Positions 1,728 through 56,432 of a DNA stretch of 64,000 nt are shown here, in pieces (position 1 is the first letter of the stretch; every line of letters starts with the position of its first letter). The translations under genes were made by a program, and so were the position numbers. The notes under the pieces are model-generated. The model had not been told where the DNA came from. It ran no database searches and saw nothing but the letters and a program-made list of their open reading frames with translations. This stretch comes from Gossypium raimondii (lineage: Eukaryota; Streptophyta; Magnoliopsida; Malvales; Malvaceae), in the NCBI RefSeq assembly GCF_025698545.1, contig NC_068576.1:53850390-53914389 (forward strand). The letters run 5' to 3'.

Positions 1728-3479
1728 ACGTCTCACAAGTTTAATTTTATGCAGTATATATTTGAATAATTTGAAATCCTTCATATGAAAGTTGCGGAAT
1801 TCTTATTATCCAAATCCGTGAAGGTAAAGATTAGGTACTGGTCTTGGCCCCTTAAAATTGGTAGATTATTAATTTAATTCTTTAATTTTTTATAAAATTA
1901 TACATTTACATAATGATAAAATTATACTTTGACCTTCTCAATAATTTATAATTTATCTTTAATCTCTTAAAGTAATTTTCCTGCTTCGTCCAAAGAATCT
2001 AAATATTTGATTTTGAATGTTAATCCAATTATATTTTCATAGAGATAAACTACACCAAAACAGACTTTTAGCGACGGTTTTTTAGGCTTTTAGCAGTACT
2101 TTTTAGCGCCACTAAAAGTATTTGGAAGCGTCGCAAAAAATGTCGTTATAGACAACGTCGCTAATGTTTGTGGCGTTTATAGAAATAAACGCCGCTAAAG
2201 ATCATGTTCTTTAGCGGCGCTTTTCCCACAAACGCCGCTATTGTTTGGTGACCTTTAGCGGTACTTTTTTTAAAAACGACACTAATTTTGAAATTTTTGT
2301 AAAATAAAATTTTTCATATTTTCAGCCCTCTTATAGCAACAAATCAAAATCAACCCAATCTAAACCAGCCAAAAGCAATAAATCTATATAATATTTTAAA
2401 TTAAACAAATAAAATAATATTAATATCAATAAATCAAATATAAATCATATTATTTTTAAAAATGTTAAAAGTTAAAATGATAAAAATATTTATACAATAC
2501 ACTATGACGGCGGATGTTGCAACTGCTGAAACATCTTCATCATATTCTAAAATTATTGTTGGAGTTCGTCGTACTTTCTGCTCTGCTCTGCTTCCCTCGT
2601 TACAACCTCTACGCTTCCCACCATTTTCAGCTGAAAAATGGTATATTATTATATAAGAATTTGAAAAATAAATCAATTATAAGACAACACGCATGTAAAT
2701 TAAATGTAAAATTACTTTAAAATTCTGTAGGATCCTCAGGTGTAATCGGAACATTCGAAGATCCAATTCCTGTCTGTTGTTCACTATTTGTTTCTGCGGA
2801 CAATGCTTAAATCTCGCATTTTTCTTCTAGGCATTTTATCTAGTGAACAACAGACATGATTTAAATCTAAAACATCATAATTTTTAGTGTGTTGATTTTA
2901 CTAATTCAATCAAAACGACATTTATTTTTTACATCGCTTTTTATTAATATATTTGTTAAAGATTTTTCCCACATCGCATATACATAAGAATTTAATACTA
3001 TTCAATTAATTTCAAACTATAACAAAAATAACTAGGAAAATACAGTAAAAAAATAAATTACAAGGGTAATTTTGAATCTGTATATTAAAAAATTTAATTG
3101 AAAACAATAAAATTCTAATAATGCATAAAACTAATAATGTAAGCACTTGCTATGTATTTTACTAGTTGGTCGCATGAAATTAAAGAAAAGAATAATGAAA
3201 TTAAAGAAAAGAAAAGAATAATGTAAGCATTTGCTATACGTATTCCATAACTCATAACCTGGAAGCAACTGCACTTTTTAAGTTATGTGAACAATGCAAA
3301 ATCTTTGTTGGATTCATGAATTAACGTCACCATGCAAAATCACCATGCAAAATCCTTTTTTTTTCTTTCCTTTTTGGCAGAATATTGATTACCAAACAAA
3401 AAAAACAAGTTAACGTCAGAGAATCATTAAAATATAATTAAATTAAAAACTGAGATTGCTCAAAGTCCATTGCCTCTCA

Positions 3480-4090
3480 AGCTTTGATAATTTCGAGTTT
3501 CTTTCTAATGAGCTACAGCTTCTAAAAATGGATAAGATATCCTTTAAAATCGTTGCCTTCAAGCTTCCAACTGGACAACCTTGTTGTAGTACATATCTTG
3601 CCATATAGTCGCATTGAACAACTTTGGAAGGGAAATATAGTAAAAACTAATTCATCTTATCCCTGTCTTTTAGCTTAATTTAAGATGAATGGTTAAAATT
3701 TTATTAAGATTAAAAATTAGCAACAAAAATTAGTTTACTTAGTTTCTCTTTTCTACCTAAATTATTATTGTTTTCAGCAGCCCCTGTACAAGTTAAAAGT
3801 GTTCAACCTCAAAGGCACTAAAAATCTAATCAAGACACCTACAGTTTTTGAACAACTTTGGAAGGGAAATATAATAAAATCTAATTTGTTATTGTTTTGA
3901 GCAACTACAGTTTTTGGTAGAGCTTGACTTAAGTGAAACTCCCATTCGGAAGACCACCATATTGCATTCTTCAACTTAAAAACCACAAAGTTTTGTATTT
4001 CAATGGGCGCAAGGGAGCATCATCTAAGTTACGAATGAATCTACCTCCCTTATTGAAGTTAAACCAAACAGCAATGATAGAACCCATGCA
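3480..4090 (+). pseudogene. TIR-NBS-LRR (TNL) resistance-gene fragment, LRR part, broken
   Basis: Translated pieces in shifting frames match the first leucine-rich repeats of plant TNL immune receptors. They are DNFEFLSNELQLLK (from about 3487), YPLKSLPSSFQLDNL and RIEQLWKG (about 3537-3640), KVFNLKGTKNLIKTP (about 3795-3842), LVELDLSETPIRKT (about 3915-3955) and KVLYFNGRKGASSKL (about 3980-4035). The order is the order in intact TNLs. Stops and frameshifts separate the pieces, and no TIR or NB-ARC domain is nearby. A ~41 bp direct repeat (3614-3654 and 3848-3888) interrupts the middle. The fragment lies inside the 2048-6890 transposon-like block, which suggests gene capture. It cannot make a working receptor. 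Confidence 0.75.
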
Positions 4091-4093
4091 TAT

Positions 4094-4570
4094 ACACATA
4101 CAAATTTAGGCATTTTTAAAACAGTTAGGCAACAAGGAAAAATAAAGAATAACCATCGAAAAAAATCCCTAAAATTGACAGAAACAAAACCCTATATGCT
4201 TCTCCCACAATCGACAGAAAAAGGCATACCTGGGATCGGAATTTCGCAGCTTTGAATGCTCGATTCGACCCTTCCTTCGGTTCAGTTGTAGCTGGACTTC
4301 TCCTCTGCTTCTTTCTCTTGTTCATGCGTATCCACATACAAATAGCAGCATTTTAAAACAGTTCAGTAGAAAGGAAAAAAGAAGAATAATGACCGGGAAA
4401 AATCCCAAATTTGACAGAACAAGAACCCTAAATGTAGATCGACAATCGATAGAAAAATGGTTACCTGGGATACAAATTTCGCAGCTTTGATAGATGGAAT
4501 CAACCCTTGCTTCGGTTCTGAGTTCTCCCCTGGAACTTTTTCTTTGTATTTTTTCCCCTTTCGATTCAAG
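4094..4570. repeat. Tandem duplication of a ~240 bp unit
   Basis: Copy 1 (about 4094-4331) and copy 2 (about 4332-4570) share, in the same order: ACATACAAAT, TTTAAAACAGTT, AATCCC, TTGACAGAA, AACCCTA, ATCGACA, TACCTGGGAT, AATTTCGCAGCTTTGA and CCTTGCTTCGGTTC-like blocks. On the minus strand each copy has a CCCAG|GTA sequence that looks like a splice donor after a G/A-rich open stretch, so the unit may derive from the first exon of a gene. I do not recognise that gene. Confidence 0.65.
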
Positions 4571-4659
4571 CTTTCCTCTGCGTTTTTTGAATTCCCAAAT
4601 TTCCTTCATTTTCCGACAGTAAACGCAATAAGGCAAGTTAAAACTGATAAGTTTAATAC

Positions 4660-5480
4660 CGTGTAAAAAACGGCGCCGTTTAGATAAATTTTAAGAGATA
4701 ATTGCGGCGTTTTAGGGAAAAACGCTGCTATTTTTTCTGATATTTGCGGCGTTTAAATAAAAAACGCCACCAAAAAATAAAGTATTGAACGCAAAACGGT
4801 GCCGTTTTATTAAACTTTAATGCATATTTCCGACGTTTCGAGCAAAAACGCCAGTATAAATTCATTTCATGAAGCAAAACGGGAACATTTTGCGGAACAT
4901 TAATTCAATCTTGCGCACTACAAGATTTTATTCCAGTAGAGAAACGGCGCCGCATTGGCAAACATTAATTCAGTTTGCGGCTTTTTATTAAAAAAAGCCA
5001 CTATAAGATTTTATTCCAATAGAGAAACGGTGCTGAATTGGCAAACATTAATTCACTATTGCGCCGTTTTCTTAAAAAATGCCACTATAAGATTTTATTC
5101 CACTAGAGAAACGGTGCCGCTTTGCCAAATTTTAATAAATCCTTGCGGCGTTTTCACTAAAAATGTCACAAAAAAAATTTCGTTCCTCTAGATAAACGGT
5201 GCCGTTTTGAAAAATTTTAAAACATAATAACGGCATTTTCCGTAAAAATGACACTAAAAGAATTAAACTCCTCAACTGAAACGACGGCATATATAAAATT
5301 TTGAATACATATTTTGCGGCGTTTTTAGTCATAAACGCCGCTAATGTTACCTTTTCCGGCGTTTACAGAAGAAACGCCACTAATAAATCACATTCTTGTA
5401 ATGAAATGACAACGTTTTAGAAAATTATAATACATGTTAGCGGCGTTTTTACTATAAATACCGCCAAACCTCTCATATTT
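4660..5480. repeat. ~84 bp tandem array with GAAACGGTGCCG motif
   Basis: The motif GAAACGGYGCCG or a variant recurs at about 4941, 5024, 5108, 5193 and 5278, a spacing of 83-85 bp, with looser copies at about 4669, 4793, 4875 and 5404. Each unit also carries a small inverted pair of the form GCGGCGTTTT...AAAAACGCCACT, so each unit could fold into a short hairpin. Confidence 0.75.
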
Positions 5481-5547
5481 TACAATTTTTTATATTCAAA
5501 TTATTGTATATTGCATATCAATTTCAAATTAATAATCTTTACAATTA

Positions 5548-6300
5548 TGTAAGAACTTATTTGATATATAAATTAAAAATACTAATTAATCTAAACCTTA
5601 AACCCTAACCCGACCCCAAATCTCTAATCCCTAATCCCTAACCCCTAAGCCATAACCCAAACCTGAATCCCTAACTCAACCCCTAATCCCTAAACCTTAT
5701 TTAATATATAAATTAAAAAACACTAATTAATCTAAATCATAAACCATAACCCGACCCCAAACCCCTAACCTCTAAACCTTATTTAATATATAAATTAAAA
5801 AACAGTAGTTAGTCTAAACCCTAACCATAACCCAACCCCGAATCCTTAACTCGGCCCCTAACCCTTAACCCCTAACCCATAACCCCTAAACATTATTTAA
5901 TATGTAAATTAAAAACACTAATTAATTTAAACCCTAAACCATAACCCGACCCCAAATCCCTAACCCCAACCTTTAACCCCTAACCCCTAAACCTTATTTA
6001 ATATATAAATTAAAAAACACTAATTAATCTAAAACCTTAAATCATAACTGACCCCAATCCCCAACCCGACCCCTAACCCCTAAACATTATTTAATAAATA
6101 ACTTAAAAAACACTAATTAATCTAAATCCTAAACCATAACCTGATCCCGAATCCCTAACCCCTAAACCTTATTTAATATATAAATTAAAAATACTAATTA
6201 ATCTAAACCCTAAACCATGACCTGGCCCCAAATCCTTAACCCTTAACCCTTAACCATATATTAAACCCTAAACTATAATGATAATTAATTAAATATTTTA
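5548..6300. repeat. Telomere-like minisatellite, ~80-150 bp units
   Basis: Seven units begin with a CTTATTTAATATATAAATTA-like AT-rich block (about 5549, 5697, 5778, 5890, 5993, 6086, 6168). Each is followed by AACACTAATTAATCTAAACC and then degenerate runs of CCCTAAC / CCCTAAA / CCGACCCC. An eighth AT-rich block near 6405 lacks the C-rich part. The C-rich part resembles the plant telomere repeat (CCCTAAA) but is irregular, so it is better described as an interstitial telomere-like minisatellite than a true telomere. Confidence 0.75.
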
Positions 6301-6890
6301 AAATTAACCATATACCTGAACCATATATATTAAACCCTAAACTATAATGATATTTAATTAAATATTTTAAAATTAATACTATCGTATCTTTTACAATTAT
6401 ATATGAAATTATTTAATGTATAAATTAAAAATCAATTAGTCATGTACTCAAAAAATTTAAAATTATTTTAAATATAATAGTATTTTAATTTTTCCATTTT
6501 TAACAAATATTTTTCTATGTTTTTTATTTGAAATTATTTCTACGTCTCGTTATTTCAAAATTATATATTTTTAACAAATATTCAATTAAAAATAATTTGA
6601 ATTGTAATTAATATAAATAAACAAATTAAATAGTAAATAGGCAGATAAAATATTTTTGCAGCGCTTTTTCAAAAACGCCGCTAAAGCCCCGAAAGGTTAA
6701 AAAACGGTGCCGTTGGGCTTAGGTTTTTTGCAAAAGTGCCGCTAATGCTCATTTTGAGCGGTGCTTTCAAGAAAGCGTCGCTAATGCTCGATCTTTAGCG
6801 GCGTTTTATGTAAAGCGCTTCTAATGCTCTCTTTTTAGCGGCGTTTTTTTTCAAACGCCACTAAAAATGCCGCTAAAAGCCGGTGTAGTG

Positions 6891-9069
6891 TGTGATTGTT
6901 TTTATACAAAACTAAAATATACCCTTTGCTATGCTTGAGGAAATTGGATTAAGACTTTAAACAATATTTAGAATAATATTAATAAATAAAAATATAATAT
7001 CAACATTTAAGTAAATTTATTTAGATTTAACATGTCATTATGATAAATTTATACGAAATGTAATTGAGTACATAAAAAATAATTATACGCAATATAAAAA
7101 TAGCAAGAACACAACATAAGTATATCAACGTGTTAATATCCATATTAAATAAGTCATTGACATGTAATGTTTTGCACAAATATAATATTTTAATCACATA
7201 AAATATAATACAAAAGGGACTCAGTTTAACTCAACATTGCAAAAAAAAATCATATTAATCAAATAATACTTTTGGATACAATCAATGTTAATTATAGAGG
7301 TAAATATCAATTTTACACATTAACTTAGATTTATCGTGTAATATCATATGCTAATTTTAATTTATTTCAATTATACATTTAACTTTTATTTTGATTCACT
7401 TATAAATATTTAAAATAAACAAATTCAATAATTTTCATGTTAGGTAAATAAAAGTAAACCTAAAATGATATACTATATCGAGTATAGTGTTAATGATTTG
7501 TAAAATTAAATTAAATTTAATATTAATGTACCACATTGCATAAAATTAAAGTTTATGTATGGAATTGAATATTAAATCATATATTTCATGTACCCTATTT
7601 ATGATAATTTGTATTTTAATTTATACAAATAACCAAAGCCTTTCAAAAGTTTTTTTTTTTTTGCTACTATGACATTTTTATTGTTAAAATGATCTTTTTT
7701 ACATATATTTATGTGTGATTAAAACTGTTATGGTATTTACCTCTACTCAATTCTTAGACCAGCACAGTTTCCATACTAACCCACAACCACGCCAGCATGT
7801 ATAGGTCGTTGATATGCAGTTCGCTTGCATGGGTTCGCATCACCATGCAGGCAAACCTCCATATTCCAAGAAACAGGTGTTGACCCTATACATGTTAACC
7901 TGTATGAAGAACTACTTAATCTTAGTATACCAAATCATGAAACCGTAACATATAAATAGAAAATTGGCTTTAATGAGTACACAAAAAACAAACCCTTTCA
8001 ATTCTAAAGCAAACAATTCTAACGAAAGGAGACGACTTTCAAAGATAGTTATAGTTTGTAACAAGTAGTCGTATTGCTGTATACGGAGAAGGCTGCTCTT
8101 GTTTTAGAATGAAAGGACTTTTGTTTGAAATAGTTGACGGCGATATTTCCTAGTGGTGAATGATATACAGTATTGGCATTGAACAACATGCAAGACAATG
8201 GCGAATAGCAAGTTTTAACAAAGAAACTTTACATCCCAAAGCAAATCAGCAGTTGTGTTTGGTTCACAGCTCAAATTGATAGCAGGAAAGGTTTGTAGTG
8301 AGACATGAAAATGGAAGTTGGTAAGAGACCCCACCCTCACCAACACCACTTTTGAATCTTTTGACATATATAAAAGAGAATTTATGGGATTCTTCCACTC
8401 TGCAATATACTATTAGTTTCACTTCCCAACCATTACCAATACCTAGCTAGGGTCTCTCTAGCATTTGACTACTTTTTTAGCGACATCCCCCTTGTAGCAT
8501 GAATCTCTCTCCTTACCTTCTATTTGCTGTTTTAGTCATAGAAAAGCAAACCAAAGCGAAAGCGAATCTTGTGTACGAGTATACGTTTAATATGAGTATA
8601 TTTTCATTAGAAAAAACTTTCTTCATCATCAAGTCATGAAAAAGGCAAATCTGAGAAATTTCCCTCTTCATTTTCTTGAAAAATTATTGAGTTTATTAAG
8701 CAACCAGGACTAGGTAGCATTATAACACATCACCCAACAAAAGGAATACACAAGACAAAGCAAAGTGGTAAAGTAGGGTTCTGATTCTATATAGCAAAGA
8801 AAAAGCAGGAAATAAACATCACTTCAGTCAAGGTAAAAAAGGGAAGTAATATTATAAAACAAATGATTAAAAAAACCATCACCCAAGAGCCAACATCTTC
8901 CATTTGTAGGGGAGACATCAAGAGACTGTAACAGTACTGTTTAAACACTTTAATAGGCAGTAAAGTGGGGAGAAATCACCCAAAGATGCCATTGTTTGAG
9001 TTCCATACTAATTACAGCAACAATGGCAGGTAGTTTTGGTTTAAGCCTTTAATATCTTTACTTTTTTAT
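6891..9069. other. AT-rich spacer without a recognisable gene
   Basis: No supported coding frame was found. A TATATAAAAG box lies near 8370, followed by a C/T-rich leader-like stretch to about 8520, which looks like a promoter, but no gene follows it. An imperfect hairpin lies at about 7818-7856, with arms GTTCGCTTGCATG and CATGCAGGCAAAC (11 of 13 pairs). It does not match a miRNA I know. Confidence 0.4.
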
Positions 9070-10981: not shown

Positions 10982-12846
10982 TTTTTATCGAATTAGCAGC
11001 GCTATGGAAGAACCTTCATTGAAGTTCTAAGAAAAAAAAAGCCATTGCCCTTTTGATGACTTTAAAAATAAGAAGATTATAGTTTAATTTCTAGCTTCTG
11101 ATACAAGGAGCTGCAAGCTGCCATTGCCAACCAGTCTAATTCTCTTTGAATTCCCATTTTTCAAAATATAAAATGCAGAGGTATAAATTCCAGATATAAC
11201 TATAAGCATTAGGTTAAAGTTCTTGAACTATAAATATCATTTACAGCCTTGAATTTCAATCATCAAAGGCTTTTCCATAGGCTAAATCATTATAGACCCT
11301 GGATTTGACTACACTAAATAGAGTTAAAAGCATGTGATAATATAAACTAATCCTCTACCCTTGGACTTGGAAATTGCTTTGACTGTTCTTTCATTGGAAG
11401 ATATTTTTAGGTTCTGTTTTTTTTCTATTCAGGAAAATATATTTGCCTTTCTTTTTCCTTCTTAATTACTTTGTTTCCTTTCCTGTTTTAGCCATTGGAT
11501 TGTATTTCACCTTCTTTACTAAAAAAATGGGTAAATTAGTTTATGTTCATTGGATTAAAAAATAAATTGATTATTTCTGTTAAAATTCTTAACTATTTCT
11601 ATTATTAAAAATTAGAGTAATTAACGGAATAATCAAATAGTTACACGTGGCATGACACATGTACCTCATATTGACATATAAGAACTATTTTTTAACGATA
11701 AAAATGAATGATATTTTTAACAAAAATATCAGTTTACTTTTTGGTCTAGCCTTTTTTAATAAAAGGCGACAAAAACAAAATCCAACCCATAATATAAGGA
11801 CCATCATAGTACTTTTACTTATTTTGTGATGTGCTCGAATCTTCATTCATGTTAGCACCTCAAAGATATAACATCCAGTGGATTTAAAATTCGAAGTTTC
11901 ACGTCTGGAATTTCTTCTTCTATCCTATACTGTTATGGATTTATATAAGGGAATTTTTATGTTGGTAAACAACCCTTTTTGTTTGTGTGAACAATTCAAC
12001 ATTCTGTGATGAACATTGAAGGGCATAAAAATACATAGAAAAAGGAAGATACCATTTCTCTTTAACCAAACCTGTAGACAAAAAATGTAGCATAAACCCT
12101 CCTAAAAAAACCTACTGGCAAGTGACATATTCCAATGAAGATTACCCTTTTTTGGTAACCGATCACTGGTAATTCTTTTTATATTAAAAAAGAGAAAAAA
12201 CAAGTAAAGTTTGCAAGTTGCAGAACAGTTTCTGTATTGATTTTGATAGGAATTGGTAAAGATTAATCAAGTTCTCTTCAAGTTGTTATAAAATGTTCCA
12301 TAATAAGCCCTAAAAAAATGCACCTTTAAACCAGAGGAACACATGGAATTTGAGACTTTTGATCAACATGTTCAATATTCTGGTTTTAAATTCTAACACA
12401 ATTTACTTGAACAAGTTCATTAATTAAACAGATTTTCAACCACCAACATATGTTTGACCCCCTTTTTTTTTTTTATCTTCCAATTTTTTTAAAGTAATGG
12501 ATCCAATCCAACAAGTGAAGATGCTAGACATGATCATTAAATATACACATATATTATTCAAACCTTTCAAAGTGTTATTGGTTATGGGCACTTCACATAA
12601 AATATGTTATCATATAATAATATTAAACATGAATTATTAAGTTTTTAAGATATTAATTTCGAGTATTGGGGATGAAAATGCTTTTGATGATATGTAAAAG
12701 TATTTCAAACTCTCAATATAATGGCTGCAGTTATTCACACTAATTAGAAATTACAATTATTTCTTACTCTAAAAAGGCAGCCATGGCGATTTTCCTAAAG
12801 ATACTAGACGGCTAAAAAAACTACACTAAGGTTTTTTCCCACACCA
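10982..12846. other. Spacer with one small foldback element
   Basis: This is AT-rich sequence between the F1 element and the 3' end of the CCT gene. About 11527-11770 is a ~245 bp foldback element related to 39806-40062. Both start GGGTAAATTA, carry CATTTTTA/TTAAAA arms around a CACGTG-type centre, and end with CAGTTTACTTTTTGGTCTA-like sequence. Nothing else was recognised. Confidence 0.5.
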
Positions 12847-31026: not shown

Positions 31027-33776
31027 TTTCGCGGGGATCTCGATTTGATCGGAAAATATTGTAGAATAAGGTATTTTTATCTGATTCTCGATCAGAAAAG
31101 ATAAAAAAAATTGAAAGCGAACAGTGAAGGCAACCAATTTTTATACATGCTTCCCAGAGGTTTACGCTGAAGAGCCGTTTGCTTAATTATTTACTTTTTA
31201 AGAGAAAAAAAAAGGGTCCCATTTGTTTATGAACTACTATTATTTTGTAGTTATCCTCATAATGACGTGGGACATTTTCTGTGCGTACGATTTTCGAGAG
31301 TATCAAATTATCAACCGTCCGCTTATCGCCTAGTGTTTAGATTTTATTTTATTTATATACTTATTAAATTATTTATACACAATTTTTTATTATTCCAATA
31401 AAATATTATTTTGCCTCAAATTTTAAATTTTGTTTTTGATACGGGTGACTTTAATGTAAAAAATTAGGAGCAATTTATTTTAACGGTCACTTGTTAAAGT
31501 TAGTGTAAAAAATCGGGATTTAATTATTATTATTTTGTAAATATTTGAGGGTTTTTTGATACGCTTTAAAAGTTTAAGTATTAAATTGAGTAAAAAATGC
31601 AGTAATTTAATTGATTTTTATGAAAAGTTTGAAGGAAGTTTAAATACTTAATTAAATGTAAAAAAGTTAATTATTTTTAAAAAAATTTGAGAACTTAAAA
31701 TACGACAAGTGTAATATAATTAACTACAAATAGAATCAAATCATTATAATAACAGATTAAAATTCACACGTACAACGAAACTCAAAAACTTTCATATTAA
31801 AGGAATGGCGTAAAAAGGCAAACTCACAACCGATCTGAACAGTTAGATGTATAACAACTTGATGGGTCTATTTTTAAAACGGGACGAAGCTTAAAATCAA
31901 ACCCACTAAAATGGGTGGCAGGCCTAGAATTTGATCGTTTAGATGATGATTTTGTTCTAATAAAAAAAGGGTTATCTCTCCATCTGGTCCATTCTTATCT
32001 CGTAAAAACCAACCAAAATTAATATGAACCAAGGCCCACTTTTGTAGGTCTACCATCACAAATTGACCATCATATATGATATTTACACATGGCATGTAAG
32101 GCACTCTCCTGTGTTTTCCAATCATTAGTCCTTTTAATATTATTATTAACATCCAACAAAAAGCACACATTTTTATTATTAATAATAATAAACTACAGGT
32201 CAACAATGTGTTCATTGTATGTGTAGAATAATTGTTTAATTTGATTAAAATTGTTTAGTTCAACACTTGATTATAACATATAATGTATGGGAGGAATATA
32301 TAAATGATCATAAATAGCAAAGAAAGGGAAAAAAAGGGGCTAAGAAAGGAGTGCTATATGAATGCAAGTCACATGTTATCCATAAGTAAAGTTTGGTATT
32401 ATATACATGTATGGGGGTGGGGGTGGGGGTGGGGGTGGAGTGGAGAAAGGCCCAATGAATAAGAAGAACTGAAAAGGAATGACACAAGTTGTGATGAAAA
32501 TAAAATAAAATACAAAGAGACAACTCCTCATTTGTCCTCCTTTAGGGAATAAATATATGTTTATTAAATCCAAAACTTGATTTGCCTTGTGACTTTGGGA
32601 ATTGAGGATCCCTTTCCCTTGCCTTGCGTCACATGTCTATTAGTCAAGCACAAATCTACACTTTTCCAACTTGGCTTGGAATTTAAACTGAATACCAATT
32701 TGGTTTAATAAATTTATATTCTATCATGTTATTTTTATACATTTTAATTATTTTTGTATTTAGGGAGTTGTCCATATGGAATTGGCAAACCATTTATTCA
32801 TGTGAATGGCAAATTATTTGGGTTAAAACATAAAGCGAATTTGGGAGTCCAAATCAAAAGATAACATAATATCATGTGGGTATAATTAGCCCAGTTTAAA
32901 AATCGAGTTATTTATTTAAGCATTTAAAATTAGAAAGAATTAGATAAAATATTAAAATCAAAAATAAATTTGAATAAAAGGAGATTTGAAGAAAATTTTA
33001 AATTCCTAGAGCATGCCAAATTTGAATAAAAAAAAAAGGTGTTTATTGATTTTACCAATAAAATTTAGTAAAGAGAAAATTAATGACCAAAATTAATAAT
33101 TAATAAATATTTCCAGGAGGTGGGGAAGACCGGGCTGAGCGTCCCAATGAAAAATAATCTCCAAAAAAAAAAATCACAAAATCCCAAATCAAAAGTCACA
33201 AATCGCACGCAAAAAACAATACCAATGCGGCCTAGTGAAGCAAATGAATGACTAATTTAGAAACAAAAGACAATCAAACTTTCCATCTAATCCATGCACC
33301 CCCACTGTAAAATAAATTATAAAAAAACAACAGCAAGTCCGATGACCGATACAATGGTGGCCCCCCATGTGAGATTGCCCTCTGCTCCTTCTTCTCCTAC
33401 CTTTTCCCCTCTCTCTTTCTTTGCTTTGCCACTCTCATTTTTTAATCTCTGTAACAACAACAATTGCAAAAGCACCCCCATGTTATCGATCTGATTCAAA
33501 ACACTCCAATAGAAAACAGAACAAAAGCTAGATCTCATCTTTTCTCCTTCTATTTCCTTTGTTTTGTGTATTTAATGCCCCATTTTCAGGTTGGCTCTTT
33601 GGTCATGTTTTTCACTTGAGTTCTCACCCACCTGGCCGCTTGTAATTTCCTTTTTTCCTTTTTGGCATCCACCGCCATACTAAATGCTTCTGCCCAGTGC
33701 CAATGCTGTAAACTAAGAGACAGTAGCATACAGTCAAGACTCAAAAACAATAGAGGGTTGCATTGAATATCATTTC
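31027..33776. other. Spacer between divergent V-ATPase E and BTB genes
   Basis: 31027-31140 is the probable leader of the V-ATPase gene. The middle is AT-rich with no recognised gene. A G-rich repeat sits at 32413-32438. From about 33350 the sequence is C/T-rich (CTCTGCTCCTTCTTCTCC), and this is the likely leader of the BTB gene at 33777. Confidence 0.4.
32413..32438 (+). repeat. (GGGGGT)n minisatellite, potential G-quadruplex
   Basis: There are four GGGGGT units in a row followed by GG, giving G-runs of five separated by single T. This satisfies the usual G-quadruplex pattern on the plus strand and is isolated in otherwise AT-rich DNA. Confidence 0.85.
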
Positions 33777-35921
33777 ATGGCAACAACTACAACTACAAAA
33801 ATATCATCTGCTCAGCTCAAAGTACAAGTCCAACCCATCAAGCCTAAGCGCCGCAAGTGCAAGGAAACCACCATTTCTTCCTCTGCTTCGTCAGTGGCTA
33901 CTGGTTCTGCTGCTTCCGGTGCTACGAACAACTGTGCTGAATCGGGTGGTGTTCATGGAGTTCTAAGCCGGAAACTTGACTCGCCCACCATTGTTTCTCC
34001 TGATAGCTCTTGGTGTTGCCCTGCTTCCAAGCCCCTTCCAACGCCCCCTCCTTCGCCACCTCCGCAAGCTCGCCGTGTCCCGGACCAGGGGTTAACAGAT
34101 TCTTTGTCGGGCTTCAGGATCCGATATTCTCCGGGAAGCGTATTGCCTGTCATGGACTTTACGGGCGGAACATTGCTGTCCAATGGTCATTCTCCGTCGA
34201 GTTTCAACAAGTTCAACTCTGCACTCACGGCGGGTCTCTTAAACCCGATGTCCCCACCGCCTCCAGCGGACAAGATACGGTCCAGCCCGACACTTTTCGA
34301 GATGATGGCTAGCGAGCCCGATATCCATCAAAGAACCCAAAACCAAGCTCAGATCCAAGCACCCATTTCAGCTCCGAGACAAAACCAACCCCCGCCTGTT
34401 ATGGATAAGCAGGTATTGACCATGCAACGAATTTCGGATCTTTTATCGACCCGGAGCCCTGGGAACCAGTTTAACGACCCGGGTTTGAGTGATATAAAGC
34501 TGACCTTGAGTTCCAAGGATGGGATTAGTGTGTCAATGAACGTTCACCGGCAAATACTGGTGGCTCACAGTAGGTTTTTTGCTGTGAGGTTATCGGATCG
34601 ATGGACAAAGCAGCAGAGGAATGGATCAACTGGGCCGTACATTGTGGAAATATCAGACTGTGATGACGTTGAGGTTTATATAGAGACCTTGAGGTTGATG
34701 TATTGCAAAGATTTGAGGAAGAAGCTAATGAGAGAAGACGTTTCTAAGGTTCTTGGAATTTTGAAGGTAATGTTTTAGGTTTTTTTTTTTTTAAATTAAT
34801 TAAAATAGCAATTTTGTTTAAATGTATACTTAAGAATTGGCATGAAGATTAGCAGTAACAGTTTCAATTTCCCATTTTGAACTCTGAGCTTGTAACATAG
34901 ATTGAAGGATTAGGCCATTAGTGGCTTAAGTATTTAGAGTGTTGAAGTGGTGGTTCTTGTGATGTTTTTGCTTTGTCAGGTTTCAGCGGCAATTGGATTT
35001 GATGCTGGGGTTTTGTCTTGTTTGGAGTATTTGGAAGCCGCTCCTTGGGCTGAGGATGAAGAGGAGAAAGTGGCTTCTTTATTGGCGGAGCTCCACCTCG
35101 AAAACGTTGGAGCCGGGGAGGTTTTGAAGAGGGTTTCCGTTGAAGTTGCTAATGGAACTGATGAGGGTGGTGATAATGAAGAAGTGCTTCTCAAGCTTTT
35201 GCATGTGGTTCTTGAAGGCAAAGATGAGAAAGCAAGGCGTGAAATGAAAGGATTGGTCTTTAAGATGCTTCGCGAGAATTCATCTCACAACGATCTCCGG
35301 AAAGAGTCCTTATATTCAGCTTGCGATAGCTGTCTGGAATTGCTTCGACACCATTTTTTCCGAGCAGCATCTTTGGATTTGCAGGATGCGAGTCAGATTG
35401 CAAGACAAGCAGATAATTTGCACTGGATTTTGGACATTTTGATTGATAGGCAGATTGCTGAAGATTTTCTAAAAACATGGGCTTCTCAATCTGAATTGTC
35501 CGATTCTCATTCTAAAGTTCCGGTTTTCCACAGGTTTGAAGTCAGCAGAGTTACAGCTCGGCTATTTGTGGGAATCGGAAAGGGGCAGTTATTGGCATCG
35601 AAGGAATTAAGGTGCCTGCTATTACAAACATGGTTGGTGCCATTTTACGATGATTTTGGGTGGATGAGGAGGGCATCGAAAGGCCTCGATAGACATTTAA
35701 TCGAGGATGGGCTTAGCAACTCGATTCTCACTCTGCCTCTGGCTTGGCAACAGGAGATTTTTCTGGCTTGGTTTGATAGATTCTTGAACTCTGGTGAAGA
35801 TTGTCCCAACATTCAAAGAGGTTTCGAAGTTTGGTGGAGGAGGGCCTTCTGGCGACGCAGTGGTGAACAAGAACCACCATTGCCAATACGAGTCATAACA
35901 ACAGCCATCGAGAACTCATAA
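33777..35921 (+). CDS. BTB/POZ domain protein, 643 aa (At1g63850-like)
   Basis: There are two exons, 33777-34766 (330 codons) and 34980-35921, joined across a 213 bp GT-AG intron in phase 0. Residues 1-230 are low-complexity with Ser/Ala and Pro runs (PTPPPSPPP). A BTB/POZ fold starts near residue 238 ([20 protein letters not shown]) and runs into exon 2. Exon 2 continues with a helical region ([20 protein letters not shown]) and a conserved C-terminal domain ([30 protein letters not shown]). This architecture matches plant BTB proteins such as Arabidopsis At1g63850. Many BTB proteins act as CUL3 ubiquitin-ligase adaptors, but that role is not shown for this subgroup. Reading through the intron gives a stop at 34778, which would yield a 333-residue truncated product. 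Confidence 0.9.
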
Positions 35922-37446: not shown

Positions 37447-39113
37447 TCATGTTATGCAGCCCTCATCTTCAAAGTGAGGGAAGAAGGAATTCACCATCGG
37501 GCAGTCATAGTTCAGTTCTCCTATTCTCGCAGTCTTTTGCCTGAATTTATAAAAAAACCAAGCACAGGCGCCATTACCAGGATGTTTCTGTATTTAAAAA
37601 CTTCAACAAATTTGAGTGTGTGAGAGACCCTTACCATTCTTGGTCAATCAACATTTCATCTGTCAACCCAAACTCTCTTAGCTCTTCTTCATTGTGATGC
37701 ATAGATAAGCTGTATCTGCGGATTTTTAAACAGAAGATCACCATTGCTTGCACTTATGCGTGTGTGTGTGTGTGTCCATTTTGGGCTGAAAAAGTACCTT
37801 CCGCCATAACCTTTTTGCATGACAATCAAGTTACCATTGCCCATGTTATTGAGTCCTTCAAATTGTTGCACAGTCCATTTATACCATCTCATTAGAAACA
37901 CACGCAAGGCTAGGCCATGTGAGACAATAATTAAGTTCACGTTTGGGCTTTGTTCGCCTGGTGGCTGAAACCGTCCAATATCAATATCTGCCTTAAGTGT
38001 TTCTCTGAATCCTGTTTCATTTCATTATATAAAAAGTTTAACAAAACTTTAATCATTGGCAAGGTAGAAAATCTTTGGGACCGAAATTAAATTTTAATTT
38101 TTACTATAGTAAAAATATAATTTTACTATTCTTATATCTTTATAATTTTTAAAGTATTAAATTAAATTTTTATCATTTATAGAGAGACTAAAGTATAATT
38201 TTACCATTACTAATTTAAAATTTTTTAAAAATTAAAACACCTAAATGAAAAAATTTTCATTCAAGGGTCCGGGCCTACCAGCCCCCTGGCTACTCTGATC
38301 ATTGGCTAATCTACTAAAAAATGCCTTATATTTTACTAGTATTACCTGTGATCCTGTCATAGACATCTGCTGCTGATTCTCCATTAGGAAAACGGTAAAA
38401 GAAACGACCATAGCGCAGCCGAAGAGCTTTGTCAAGTCTCATTTTCTCCCTGTCCTGAAAATTCCCTTTCGCCAAACACAATCATGGCGAAAAATGGCAA
38501 GCAAATTAAATATTTAAGGCGTTATCTAAATGACAGCAATCGATGCATGCATGAGATAGAGTGACCTACCAAAATCCTGCTCCCGTATACGAGGCTCTTC
38601 CCTCATGCCTGAAATTCTAGACCGCTCGAATGCAAGACCCAAGTGCCGAAGTGTTTCGAGTGTCCTTTTATAAGGTGACACGTAGAAATAGACCTTCCAA
38701 TCATTGGCTCCATCTTTCTCGATCATTTCCCTTATCCTCCATCCACATTCCTCGGCCTCAGCCTTGCCTTTCTCGGTTAAATCAATCTTGGGATCAGGAA
38801 CTCGTGTGTAGACCGTCTCATCGACGTTCCCTTCACTCTCTCCGTGCCGTACAAGTATTATCCGGCGAGGCCTAGGCGGACGAGGAGTTGATGATGTTCG
38901 GGGACGTGTTGAAATACCCTTTTCAGGGAAACCAATAGTGTTGGTCTTTATGTATCCATTACTAGAGATTTCAAGGGCTTCTTTTCCAGTTCCAAGGCAT
39001 TGTGTAGGATTATAAGTGGGTAGTTTTCTTCGCCAAAGTGGGAGAAATGATGGTGGTGTGGAAGTAAGAGTGGCCACCATACTTTGAGAGTTCAAAGGTC
39101 TGCTTTCACACAT
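37447..39113 (-). CDS. AT74-like histidine phosphatase (phosphoglycerate mutase-like), 350 aa
   Basis: Exons on the minus strand are 39113-38570, 38465-38346, 38011-37798, 37715-37635 and 37540-37447. Their sum is 1053 bp, phases agree and all introns are GT-AG. The catalytic RHG motif (RRIILVRHGESEGN) has its phospho-acceptor His at about residue 90. The second active-site His is in LIIVSHGLALR, about residue 253. Between them lie FYVSPYKRTLETLR, RIREQDFGNFQ and FFYRFPNGESAADVYDR, the signature of plant AT74/AT74H proteins. The ~80 residues before the domain are Ser/Thr/Pro-rich and could be an organelle targeting region; a second Met at residue 12 (MVATLTS) is an alternative start. The substrate is unknown; the name phosphoglycerate mutase is by homology only. 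Confidence 0.93.
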
Positions 39114-40860
39114 GAAGAATTTAAGAAAATATATATAAGGAAAGAAAATATCATCTCAGCTTGCAATGAGGACCATGAATTTAATGGGACACATGTTACT
39201 AATAATAGTGGTCCAGGCAGCTTGGAAACTGAAGAAGACTATAAAAATTTGTACGGTCCAATTCCAAGTTCACAGGGAGCTAGACGGAGCTCGTTTCTTC
39301 GTCCATCATTTTCAGTGGGTAAGGCCTTTCTTGTTCACTTGCGCTTTAACTCCACGTTTCTGCAAATATGGTGTCGTTTCCATTGTTTTGCTCCATCTCT
39401 CGTGGATGTAAATGGATGTGGTACAACTTTGAAGAGACTTTTCTAACCTTTTTCTGTAAATTTAAATTCAAGTACTGAAAAGACAAATCCAAAACCAAAT
39501 ACGATGAATCAATCAAAAAGAGTCCAGGTGCCACCCTTTGACAATTATTTTCCATGTTTTGAGAGCAGTGGCAGACGAAAAGCTAGGCGATGGCTGGCTG
39601 AATTTAATTGGAATCTCAAAACTACATCCAATCCATTAAAATACAAATTGATTTAACCTGATTTTGATTAAAAAAAAAGAGAGTAAAAATTGAAATAAAA
39701 TTTAAAATTATACATGCAATTATGCACATCAAATTTGATAAAAAGTACCATAAAAATTTCTATATTCAGAGTTTGGTTGTGTTTTGTTCCTTCTACTCGA
39801 AAGATGGGTAAATTAATTATTATACCTTAGATCAAATATCAAAATTGGTCATTTCTATTAAAAGTATCATTCATTTTTACTATTAAAAATCGGTGTGACT
39901 GATGAAATAACTAGACAGTTCTACCTAGTGTACCACGTGTACCTTGTGCTGATGTATAGGGACCAGTTTTTAACAGTAAAAATGGATTGAATTTTTAACA
40001 GAAGGATCAATTTACTATTTGATCTAATGTATAGAGACCAATTTGCCTATTTGTTGAGCAAAGGGGCAAGAAAATACAATTTGATTGCTACTATAAGAGC
40101 CCCTATGGTACTTTTACAAATGAAACTTTGATTGTGGTTCAAATATGTAAATGAAACTTTAATTTTGATTCAATTACACGTTTAAAGGAATAAATACATC
40201 AATTTATTTGTGTATACAAGATATAAACATAAAATGACGCTACATTGATAATTGTGTTAATAGTTCATGAGAATTGGAGCAAATAAAAATTTCATATATA
40301 AAATTATAAATTAAACTAAAATTTATACATAATTTTGAGATTTATATCAAATACTTTCGATAATTACACGAATCCAAAACAACATGAATACAATTTAACT
40401 CGATCAAGTAACTCAAAATAAGTTAAATCGAAATGGTCAAAATCGAAAAGAAATCCAAATATGTAATGACTCAACTTATAACTCAAACTTCACATAATTA
40501 ATTCAATTCAAATTAATTCCATCTAAAACCAACTAATCTATTGATGGGCTAGTACTGCCCTTAGTGTAATTATTTCGTCATTAATGCTTTTAACCTTTCG
40601 AACAAATTGATAAATAAAATTTCATTGTTTATATTATTATCTTTTGTATTTATTCTCAATGGTTTTTGTATGAAAAGAAAAAAAAAACATGTAAGCAAAT
40701 ATTAGTTCACCTATTATCTAACATTTAACCAATATTAAGTTGCATAAAGTGGACGAATTAAGCAAAATAAGCAAATTGATTCAAGGGACTATTATGTTGT
40801 CTATCAAGTCTAATTAAAGAGATACCTTATCTTAGGCATCGGAGCGGATTACTCCCAGAA
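39114..40860. other. Upstream region of the AT74-like gene and spacer
   Basis: 39114-39600 is the presumed promoter side of the minus-strand gene, with chance open frames only. A ~257 bp foldback element occupies 39806-40062 (listed separately). The remainder is AT-rich and featureless. Confidence 0.4.
39806..40062. mobile_element. Foldback MITE-like element, family F2
   Basis: The left arm GGGTAAATTAATTATTATAC..TTAGATCAAATATCAAAATTGGTC is matched in inverted sense by the right arm, which ends TTTGATCTAATGTATAGAGACC then AATTTGCC. CATTTTTACTATTAAAAATC is answered by TTTTTAACAGTAAAAATGGA. The copy at about 11527-11770 has the same layout, including a central ACACGTGGCA/CCACGTGTAC segment. Confidence 0.7.
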
Positions 40861-53473: not shown

Positions 53474-53580
53474 AATCAGCATCAACTTTTGATCAGTATC
53501 TCAGAAGCTGGTGGGCAAGACAAGTATACACAAAGGACCAAAAAGAAGATTAAAAGAAAAAGAAAGAAAAACTGGTTTTC

Positions 53581-56066
53581 ATGGCTAGAGAATCGTGTGA
53601 AGATAAATCAAGGAATATTGTGTCATCCACTGGATTTTGCTACTCAGAAGTTTCATCTGGTAACTCAACCATGCAAACCCATCTGGTGAATCAGATCCAA
53701 GGCTTTGAATCCAACCCAGAGATCTTCAACTTAACAACAGGCATGGAGATGATAGGGTTTGCCAAGAACCTACAGCAACAACAAGGTGACACCAACAACA
53801 TGATCATGTGGAAAGGGTTCTTCAACAAACATGGAAACAACCCAGGAGCAGCAGGCCCTTCTTCTCCTTCTTCTTCCAAGCCAATCAATGAGTCAACCAC
53901 TGATTTCTATCAACATGAATTCCACAAACCTGAGTTCACAACTGGGATATCTGAAACCAGTACTGGGAATCTAATAGTTGGATCTGAATCAGCTCCATGG
54001 CAAGAAAACAGGTTGCTTGTTGATGATTCTTCTTTTAGGTGTGTGTTCCCTTGTGAAGGGAACGAGAGACCAAGTCAAGGTCTTTCGCTCTCTCTTTCAT
54101 CAAGTAATCCTACTAGTATCGGGTTACAGTCTTTTGAACTAAGACAAACAAGCCATAGTAACCATGATGACCAGCCAGATGATATGAGGTTTATTGGTTC
54201 AAGTTCAAGAGATGGGTTCTTTGGAAAGCCGGCAATTGTTCAACAACATGAAGGTCAGTTCCAAATAAGGGGTTCCAGGTACTTGAATGCTGCTCAAGAA
54301 CTTTTGAATGAATTTTGCAGCTTGGGAACAAAGCAATTGGATACATCAAAGCAAAAGCAAACCCAAAAGACCACCAAACAGTGGGATGATGATGATGGAG
54401 GAGCTAGCTCTTCAAGGAAGCAATCACTATATTCCCTCGATTTCACTGAGTTACAGAGAAGAAAAACCAAGATGCTTTCAATGCTGGAAGAGGTATGTTA
54501 TATGTGTATTACGTTTTCAACTTTCAGATCCTCAAAGAAATTTTTACTTTGTGGTTGATTTGAAGGAGAACTAATTCAGCATCATGGGACCTCCCCATAA
54601 ATGCCCACATCGTGACAATTCTTGCTTTTCATTTTACTTTCTATTCCTTATCTTTTTTATTTCATGTCAGCTTATGTTTTTCATCTGCCTATATATATTA
54701 CATGTACGAAACATAAAATTTCAACTCATCATTTTCACTCCTATCCCTTTCCTCTCTTTCTCTTGTTAGGTGGACAGAAGATATAAGATCTACTGTGATC
54801 AAATGAAAGCCGTAGTATCATCGTTCGAAGCAGTGGCTGGTACTGGGGCAGCATCAGTGTATTCAGCTTTAGCCTCTAAAGCCATGTCAAGACATTTTAG
54901 ATGCCTAAGAGATGGGATTGTGAGTCAGATTCAAGCTACAAGGAAAGCCATGGGAGAAAAAGACACAGTTGCACCAGGCACAACGAAAGGCGAAACACCA
55001 AGGCTAAGAATACTCGACCAAGCTTTAAGGCAACAAAGGGCATTTCAACAGATGAGCATGATGGAGAGTCATCCGTGGAGACCCCAAAGAGGCTTACCAG
55101 AAAGATCTGTTTCAGTTCTTCGAGCTTGGCTGTTTGAACATTTCCTTCACCCGTAAATATCTCTCATCACACACTATTTTTATACGTAAAATACAAAGTA
55201 GATTTTGTGAAAGAACCAACGTTTTCTACAAAGTAAAAAACAAAACAAAAAACTCTTGCAGTCGTTTTACAGTACTGCAGGTTTAAATCATTTTTTTGCT
55301 TGCAAAAGCAATGCACAGTCTTTGTTAGTTTCTACCCATCACCATTCAGATTCTCACATGTTCAATCATTTAGCATTTCTTTCGCTTCCCTTATAGATTT
55401 GTTTTAGTCAGCTTCTCTATGTTATTTTTATCATATGGATTTGATTCTGTTAGTATAAATATATATATATATACACACCTGTAGGACCCATGTTTCCCTC
55501 ACAAACAAGTTACCCCATAAGTTCCATCCATGGCGGCAAATGTTTCAAATACGTACTAACTCTGCATTTTCATGAATAAAAAAACTTTCGCAGGTACCCT
55601 AGCGATGTTGATAAACATATCTTAGCCCGCCAAACCGGCCTCTCAAGAAGCCAGGCATGTCCACATCCCTCTCTATATTTTATTTATATCCTCAATGGAC
55701 CATATCTTCTCTTAAGCTTATTATAATCACATGCGGTTATTGAATCTGTATCATACCAAAATATTATAGGTATCGAATTGGTTCATCAATGCCAGGGTGA
55801 GGCTATGGAAACCAATGGTGGAGGAAATGTACTTGGAAGAAACAAAGGAGCACGAAAACAACATGGTTTCCTCAGATAATGGAGGTACTGATGGTGGCGA
55901 TGATAATAACAATAATGACCGGTTAAATATTCCACTGGCTGATCAGAAACCCACCCCGGACCAGCTCGTTCGAGTTGACTCGGAGTGTCTATCTTCCATT
56001 ATCACTACTAACCCGGAAAAAAACGATGGGAAAAGTGGTACCAAAACCCTTGAAAACCAGCACTTG

Positions 56067-56098
<32 letters not shown>

Positions 56099-56432
56099 AC
56101 AACAAAGTTTCGGAACCTATGGTGCCACTGCCATGGAACTGGACTTCGCTTCCTACGGTGATCACACGGCGGGTGGTGGGGTACCTTATCATAACGCTAA
56201 TCAAAGCTTCAACGGTGGAGGAGGTGTGTCATTGACATTAGGGTTGCAACAACATGGTGGGAGTGGCGTGAGCTTAGCTTTCTCGCCTGCAACACAAACT
56301 TCACTTTTTTACCGTAGAGACCACATAGAAGATTGTCAGCCAGTTCAGTACTCACTTTTAGACAACGAGGGACAACATTTGCCTTACAGGAACTTGATGG
56401 GGGCACAATTGCTTCATGATTTGGCCGGATAG
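53581..56432 (+). CDS. BEL1: BEL1 homeodomain transcription factor (TALE class), 672 aa
   Basis: The coding exons are 53581-54492, 54770-55152, 55594-55654 and 55770-56432. Features in order are: N-terminal MARES and VNQIQGFE as in BEL1; [14 protein letters not shown] at about 167-180; the SKY box [18 protein letters not shown] at 232-249; the BELL domain from about 283 ([20 protein letters not shown]) through [16 protein letters not shown]; and the TALE homeodomain at about 404-466, with PYP at 432-434 and [12 protein letters not shown]. The C-terminus ([30 protein letters not shown]) is BEL1-specific rather than general BLH. BEL1 acts in the nucleus with KNOX partners and controls ovule integument identity in Arabidopsis. 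The third coding intron starts with GC, not GT (CAG|GCATGT at 55655). A ten-His run encoded by CAT/CAC repeats (about 56067-56096) lies in the tail. Confidence 0.96.

Follow-up and report, generated by a model that had tools for sequence, protein, structure and literature searches.

A candidate non-autonomous CACTA element of Gossypium raimondii with subterminal repeats that resemble published cotton small RNAs

A stretch of 64,000 nucleotides of the Gossypium raimondii genome (RefSeq assembly GCF_025698545.1, contig NC_068576.1, positions 53,850,390 to 53,914,389 of the forward strand; hereafter the window, numbered from its first base) was analysed around a block at 2048-6890 that an earlier note, made from the sequence alone, had described as transposon-like. 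The block has ends of the CACTA (En/Spm) type, and between them lie clusters of a palindromic GCGGCG unit, a fragment of a TNL leucine-rich-repeat (LRR) sequence and three tandem arrays. As one mobile unit it is a candidate only, proposed from sequence. Its kind is ordinary, namely a decayed non-autonomous CACTA element with captured DNA, possibly composite; what is new is that sequence comparison suggests a tie between transposon ends, in the form of their subterminal repeats, and a set of published cotton microRNAs.

Ends and subterminal units of the block

The right terminal repeat (6882-6890, forward strand), GGTGTAGTG, carries the terminal CACTA...TAGTG motif complete, and the left terminal repeat (2048-2056, forward strand), AACTACACC, is identical to the canonical CACTACACC except that A replaces the first C. 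The inverted CTACACC/GGTGTAG ends reported in the earlier note are real, and they are the inner portion of the CACTACACC terminal repeat with an altered first base on the left. They extend to ACTACACC (2049) and GGTGTAGT (6882), each present as a single exact copy within the 64 kb, and position 2048 is the sole site that matches CACTACACCAAAA with one mismatch. The outer left sequence is AACTACACCAAAACAGACTTTTAGCGACGG, and the outer right sequence, in reverse complement, is CACTACACCGGCTTTTAGCGGC. When the left end was aligned with the reverse-complemented right end, the score was 28 for the outer 45 bases (maximum of 500 mononucleotide shuffles, 21), 28 for 120 bases (shuffle maximum 24, n=500) and 54 for 260 bases (shuffle maximum 30, n=500), the top alignment of the 260 bases being subterminal. 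The ends of 2048-6890 resemble the CACTA (En/Spm) type. A search for related ends with the pattern CACTACACC-N(2-14)-CTTTTAGCG gave three stretches in viral contigs and 31 in prokaryote contigs and was dropped, about a hundred chance matches being estimated for the latter; TAGCGGCGTTT was absent from both strands of 34 retrieved viral and prokaryote loci (261,903 bases).

At up to two mismatches, the unit TTTAGCGGCGTTT matches the window 16 times where 1.16 matches are expected, and all 16 fall inside the block; at up to three mismatches there are 46 matches, counting both strands, of which 37 are inside the block and nine outside. Of these 37 units, 26 form 13 convergent pairs with starts 19-21 bases apart, making palindromes of about 33 bases, all of them inside the block, and 200 local shuffles of the block produced no such pair. 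The earlier note had two GCGGCG clusters framing the block; the enrichment stands, and the number of clusters is three. The left subterminal cluster (2067-2290) has three palindromic pairs at 2166-2290, the internal cluster (4660-5470), which also holds AAACGGYGCCGTTT-like motifs, has seven at 4700-5470, and the right subterminal cluster (6655-6880) has three at 6654-6870. Subterminal repeats of CACTA elements are 10-20 bp long and occur in direct and inverted order (PMC8978399); the 37 units of the block, on both strands and with their 13 palindromic pairs, are arranged in both orders. The ratio of observed to expected CpG in 250-base bins over the clusters is 1.5-2.3, compared with 0.59 in the window outside 1800-7000; a ratio of 2.4 also occurs in one AT-rich bin at 6300 that contains three CpG. 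DNA folding of both end clusters is strong (z -4.9 and -5.4), as is RNA folding of three of the four end pieces (z -6.2, -6.7 and -5.1).

Several observations weigh against a CACTA element bounded by these ends. The left terminus opens with A instead of C, and terminal identity covers eight bases followed by a 6-base gap, beyond which CTTTTAGCG is common to both ends (terminal inverted repeats of CACTA elements measure 10-54 bp; PMC4938662). By itself, CACTACACCAAAA at up to two mismatches is at chance level, with four matches where 2.48 are expected and 25 of 100 shuffles reaching four. The third cluster of units sits in the middle of the block, and the fourth RNA piece (6650-6750) folds at shuffle level (z -1.0). 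The target duplication, which in CACTA elements is 3 bp (PMC4938662) or, according to PMC8903248, 5 nt, is absent: the flanking triplets ATA (2045-2047) and TGT (6891-6893) differ at all three bases. The check for 3-bp duplications that the earlier note proposed thus came out negative, no match of 3, 4 or 5 bases abutting the block ends; among 81 offset pairs there is a single 3-base match (-1/+3), about the number expected by chance. The missing duplication would reflect either a damaged border or ends that derive from two separate insertions.

Because of the internal cluster and the missing duplication, a fusion of two neighbouring elements is possible. The left and right ends would then come from two neighbouring CACTA insertions with host DNA, including the TNL fragment, trapped between them, an arrangement that is the intermediate in the Pack-CACTA capture model, in which adjacent elements have complementary terminal deletions (PMC13317346, citing Catoni 2019). 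Against such a fusion, the internal cluster has no visible CACTA-type end, ACTACACC and GGTGTAGT are single-copy, and CGGTGCCG, shared by the internal and right clusters but absent from the left one, fits one large right-hand subterminal region. A composite origin is considered possible, if somewhat unlikely. Counting the composite case in, the block is with good probability non-autonomous and of the CACTA (En/Spm) superfamily, either as one element or as two fused ones. The non-autonomous transposon-like element of the earlier note is supported to this extent, and its superfamily can be named as CACTA.

Subterminal units and published cotton small RNAs

The left cluster matches the Rfam model of the microRNA family MIR7510 (RF04201) on both strands, at 2188-2266 on the forward strand (51.5 bits, E 1.7e-8) and at 2187-2265 on the reverse strand (50.0 bits, E 4.2e-8), and the right cluster has further matches at 6735-6806 (33.4 bits) and 6814-6884 (27.5 bits). 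No match was found in 6891-64000 at E <= 1, positions 1-1899 being scanned at the gathering threshold. The Rfam consensus itself contains two perfect TTTAGCGGCGTTT units and one with a single mismatch; aligned without gaps from 2188 onwards, it is identical to the block at 61 of 79 bases, and outside the block at 38 at most.

Individual small RNAs were compared as published sequences. The set of 28 consists of 27 of the 37 rows of PMC4190182 (26 distinct sequences) and miR7510a, a 24-nt RNA beginning with A (PMC9760022). MiR7510a matches 2188-2211 on the reverse strand with two mismatches and 2198-2221 on the forward strand with three (0.00 matches expected), while the best match of 300 shuffled versions in the block has six. 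MiR8171-3p matches 6670-6692 on the reverse strand, inside the RNA piece that folds at shuffle level, with one mismatch, and miR8187-5p and miR8177-5p match 2187-2207 on the reverse strand with two and three mismatches, respectively (all PMC4190182). These four match the block at one to three mismatches; the other 24 need at least four anywhere in the window. The four were reached by way of the repeat motif, as was PMC4190182, so its matches are partly expected. Within the library searched, UUUAGCGGCG is printed in four papers, all of which concern cotton by title, three being small-RNA profiling studies. What the block shares with MIR7510, miR8171-3p, miR8177-5p and miR8187-5p is the TTTAGCGGCGTTT core and the palindromic layout, at one to three mismatches. 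They differ in that the published RNAs are annotated as microRNAs, whereas the copies found here are subterminal sequence within a transposon-like block and score below the Rfam cut-off.

The four RNAs are most likely transposon small interfering RNAs (siRNAs). If the units were instead those of a real host microRNA family (MIR7510, miR8171, miR8177 and miR8187) irrespective of the surrounding transposon, their publication under microRNA names, the star strands that PMC4190182 gives for its 37 candidates and the peroxidase that the degradome section of PMC4519870 names as a predicted cleavage target of miR7510a would be accounted for. These reports count against a transposon siRNA. Every MIR7510 match is far from the gathering score of 93 (best 51.5), which weighs against the tie to the block. 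A host family is nevertheless improbable, in view of the near-equal fit of both strands to the MIR7510 model, the presence between CACTA ends of three clusters with 37 units in all, and the length and initial A of miR7510a, which resemble those of repeat siRNAs (24 nt with initial A; PMC4332481).

Cotton papers connect miR7510, through predicted targets or assigned roles, with fibre development, drought, the phosphate response and virus targeting. PMC4332481 lists 15,389 siRNAs from En-Spm repeats in cotton (its Table 2), and it places miR7510 among the microRNAs and transposon siRNAs, including those of En-Spm, in a section of their own. Within the library searched, the passages of cotton papers that name miR7510 make no link to CACTA elements, and among the literature matches listed no title concerns cotton CACTA elements. 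A precedent for microRNA loci spread by a transposon is the cotton MIR482/2118D family, copies of which were spread by GosTE, a miniature inverted-repeat transposable element (MITE) (PMC10004981). The two cases share the theme of a cotton transposon, small RNAs and NBS-LRR genes, and differ in that GosTE is a PIF/Harbinger MITE with a true microRNA locus targeting NBS-LRR genes, whereas the block is of CACTA type and the small RNAs that match it show no link to its TNL piece. If the cotton RNAs are CACTA siRNAs, the target lists of miR7510 need re-examination, and cotton would have a ready marker for the silencing of one CACTA family.

The TNL fragment and other internal sequences

A degraded TNL LRR fragment occupies 3526-4080 on the forward strand, with library support for 3526-3675. 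This segment matches the Pfam family LRR_3 at 18.9 bits (E 0.0013), slightly below the curated cut-off of 20.2, and PDB, searched up to E 10, offers ADR2 (E 0.076), taken here to be a TNL, as the sole match. The pieces after 3675 and the end at 4080 were assigned by eye, presumably as later TNL repeats; segments 3721-3897 and 3933-4106 have no match in Pfam and none in PDB up to E 10. When the joined TNL peptide was compared with PDB, two unrelated chains led (E 0.057 and 0.66), followed by ADR2 (0.86) and 7crb (1.1), none of them significant. Stops and frame changes interrupt the stretch, as does a 39-bp repeat (3614-3652 and 3848-3886, 95% identity), whose recurrence is the pattern that template switching would be expected to leave. 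A match to the transfer-messenger RNA model at 3738-3949 (14.9 bits, cut-off 47, E 0.005) was set aside as chance or repeat structure. Of the captured immune-receptor sequence put forward in the earlier note there remains the short LRR stretch at 3526-3675 with its LRR_3 and ADR2 matches, in a broken context. The accompanying proposal that such an element makes small RNAs against TNL genes is unsupported, because the TNL stretch shows no folding beyond its shuffles (z -0.45, matched by 34 of 100) and the four small-RNA matches sit in the subterminal repeats; the small-RNA idea gains a link at the block ends, not at the TNL piece.

The TNL fragment could have been resident, as a pseudogene, before CACTA sequences inserted on either side of it or next to it. 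TNL genes are frequently clustered, and the block is not defined by any duplication, both of which would suit a resident fragment. On the other hand, a hand-composed DNA pattern for TNL-type LRRs occurs once in the window, and comparison of the block with the rest of the window left the TNL stretch without a significant match (lowest E 0.91 in blastn among 40 matches listed, 0.17 in tblastx), so a resident pseudogene is considered unlikely.

The other internal parts named in the earlier note were located as follows. A tandem duplication of 235 bp (4085-4518, reverse strand) has in each copy an exon-like stretch with the donor-like site ATCCCAG|GTA at its end; an 84-bp array (4916-5264) lies within the internal cluster and is composed of subterminal units; and a compound telomere-like minisatellite (5534-6252, forward strand) has seven copies at a spacing of 81-141 bp, each with an AT-rich part and a degenerate CCCTAAA part. 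At 2759-2868 is a foldback with 28-bp arms (2759-2786 and 2841-2868) that are 86% complementary; folded as RNA, 2745-2885 has z -5.6. The foldback is without GCGGCG units and is a possible small-RNA hairpin. As the earlier note had stated, no transposase was recognised: 13 translated segments, part of the block's frames, matched no transposase family in Pfam. A non-autonomous CACTA copy needs none. In a first Pfam set of six segments, five had no match below E 0.08, and candidate coding remnants in seven segments were rejected (lowest Pfam E 0.084, unrelated families). The top blastn match of the block to the rest of the window (E 3.4e-6) is a 92-base AT-rich stretch, and matches to MIR1319 (27.9 bits, cut-off 116.6) were put down to chance or repeat structure.

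Gene-capturing CACTA elements are already a known route by which pieces of plant genes move. The block resembles Pack-CACTA and Pack-TYPE elements (PMC8903248, PMC13317346) in its CACTA-type ends, its lack of a recognised transposase and the piece of a host gene inside, here a TNL LRR fragment slightly under the LRR_3 cut-off; it differs in having three tandem arrays and ends without a target duplication. In Chenopodium, Jozin and others (PMC8978399) described CACTA elements that contain captured gene fragments or a satellite array; these share with the block the CACTA ends, short direct and inverted subterminal units, a captured fragment and an array near one end. The Chenopodium elements described carry transposase domains, whereas none was recognised in the block; their subterminal unit is a 12-bp TATTTGTAACTA-like sequence instead of the palindromic GCGGCG unit, and their array is a 171-bp satellite instead of a degenerate telomere-like minisatellite.

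If the block is a non-autonomous CACTA element, a related autonomous element would move its ends in trans, by means of proteins that bind to the subterminal repeats and cleave at the CACTA ends. The TNL piece would be a passenger, which may have entered when a gap was repaired or when two adjacent elements were excised together. Transcribed palindromic ends would form hairpins or double strands, and dicing of these would yield the 21-24-nt RNAs by which the family is silenced. A bolder and rather doubtful extension is that CACTA ends are the birthplace of a cotton small-RNA family: their subterminal palindromes would give rise to 21-24-nt RNAs (miR7510, miR8171, miR8177 and miR8187), some of them now true microRNAs acting on host genes, while such elements add pieces of immune genes to the same silenced unit.

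Elsewhere in the window

Three genes were recognised elsewhere in the window. A POX-domain gene (53554-56432), which is assumed to encode a BEL1-like homeodomain protein, has POX in two segments; the homeodomain was not found there, and no further search was made. A BTB/POZ gene (33717-35921) matches BTB slightly above the cut-off and BTB-POZ_ANK-like strongly, and a gene of the histidine phosphatase superfamily is at 37689-39155 on the reverse strand.

The Rfam model MIR7502 (cut-off 71) matches both strands at 11578-11722 (91.9 and 59.4 bits) and at 39856-40000 (105.7 and 85.7 bits). That both strands match at two sites within 64 kb is more suggestive of a MITE than of a microRNA gene; an end-to-end palindrome search at these loci gave weak scores only. 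The best match of miR8186-3p, with four mismatches, is at 40023, adjoining the second MIR7502 locus.

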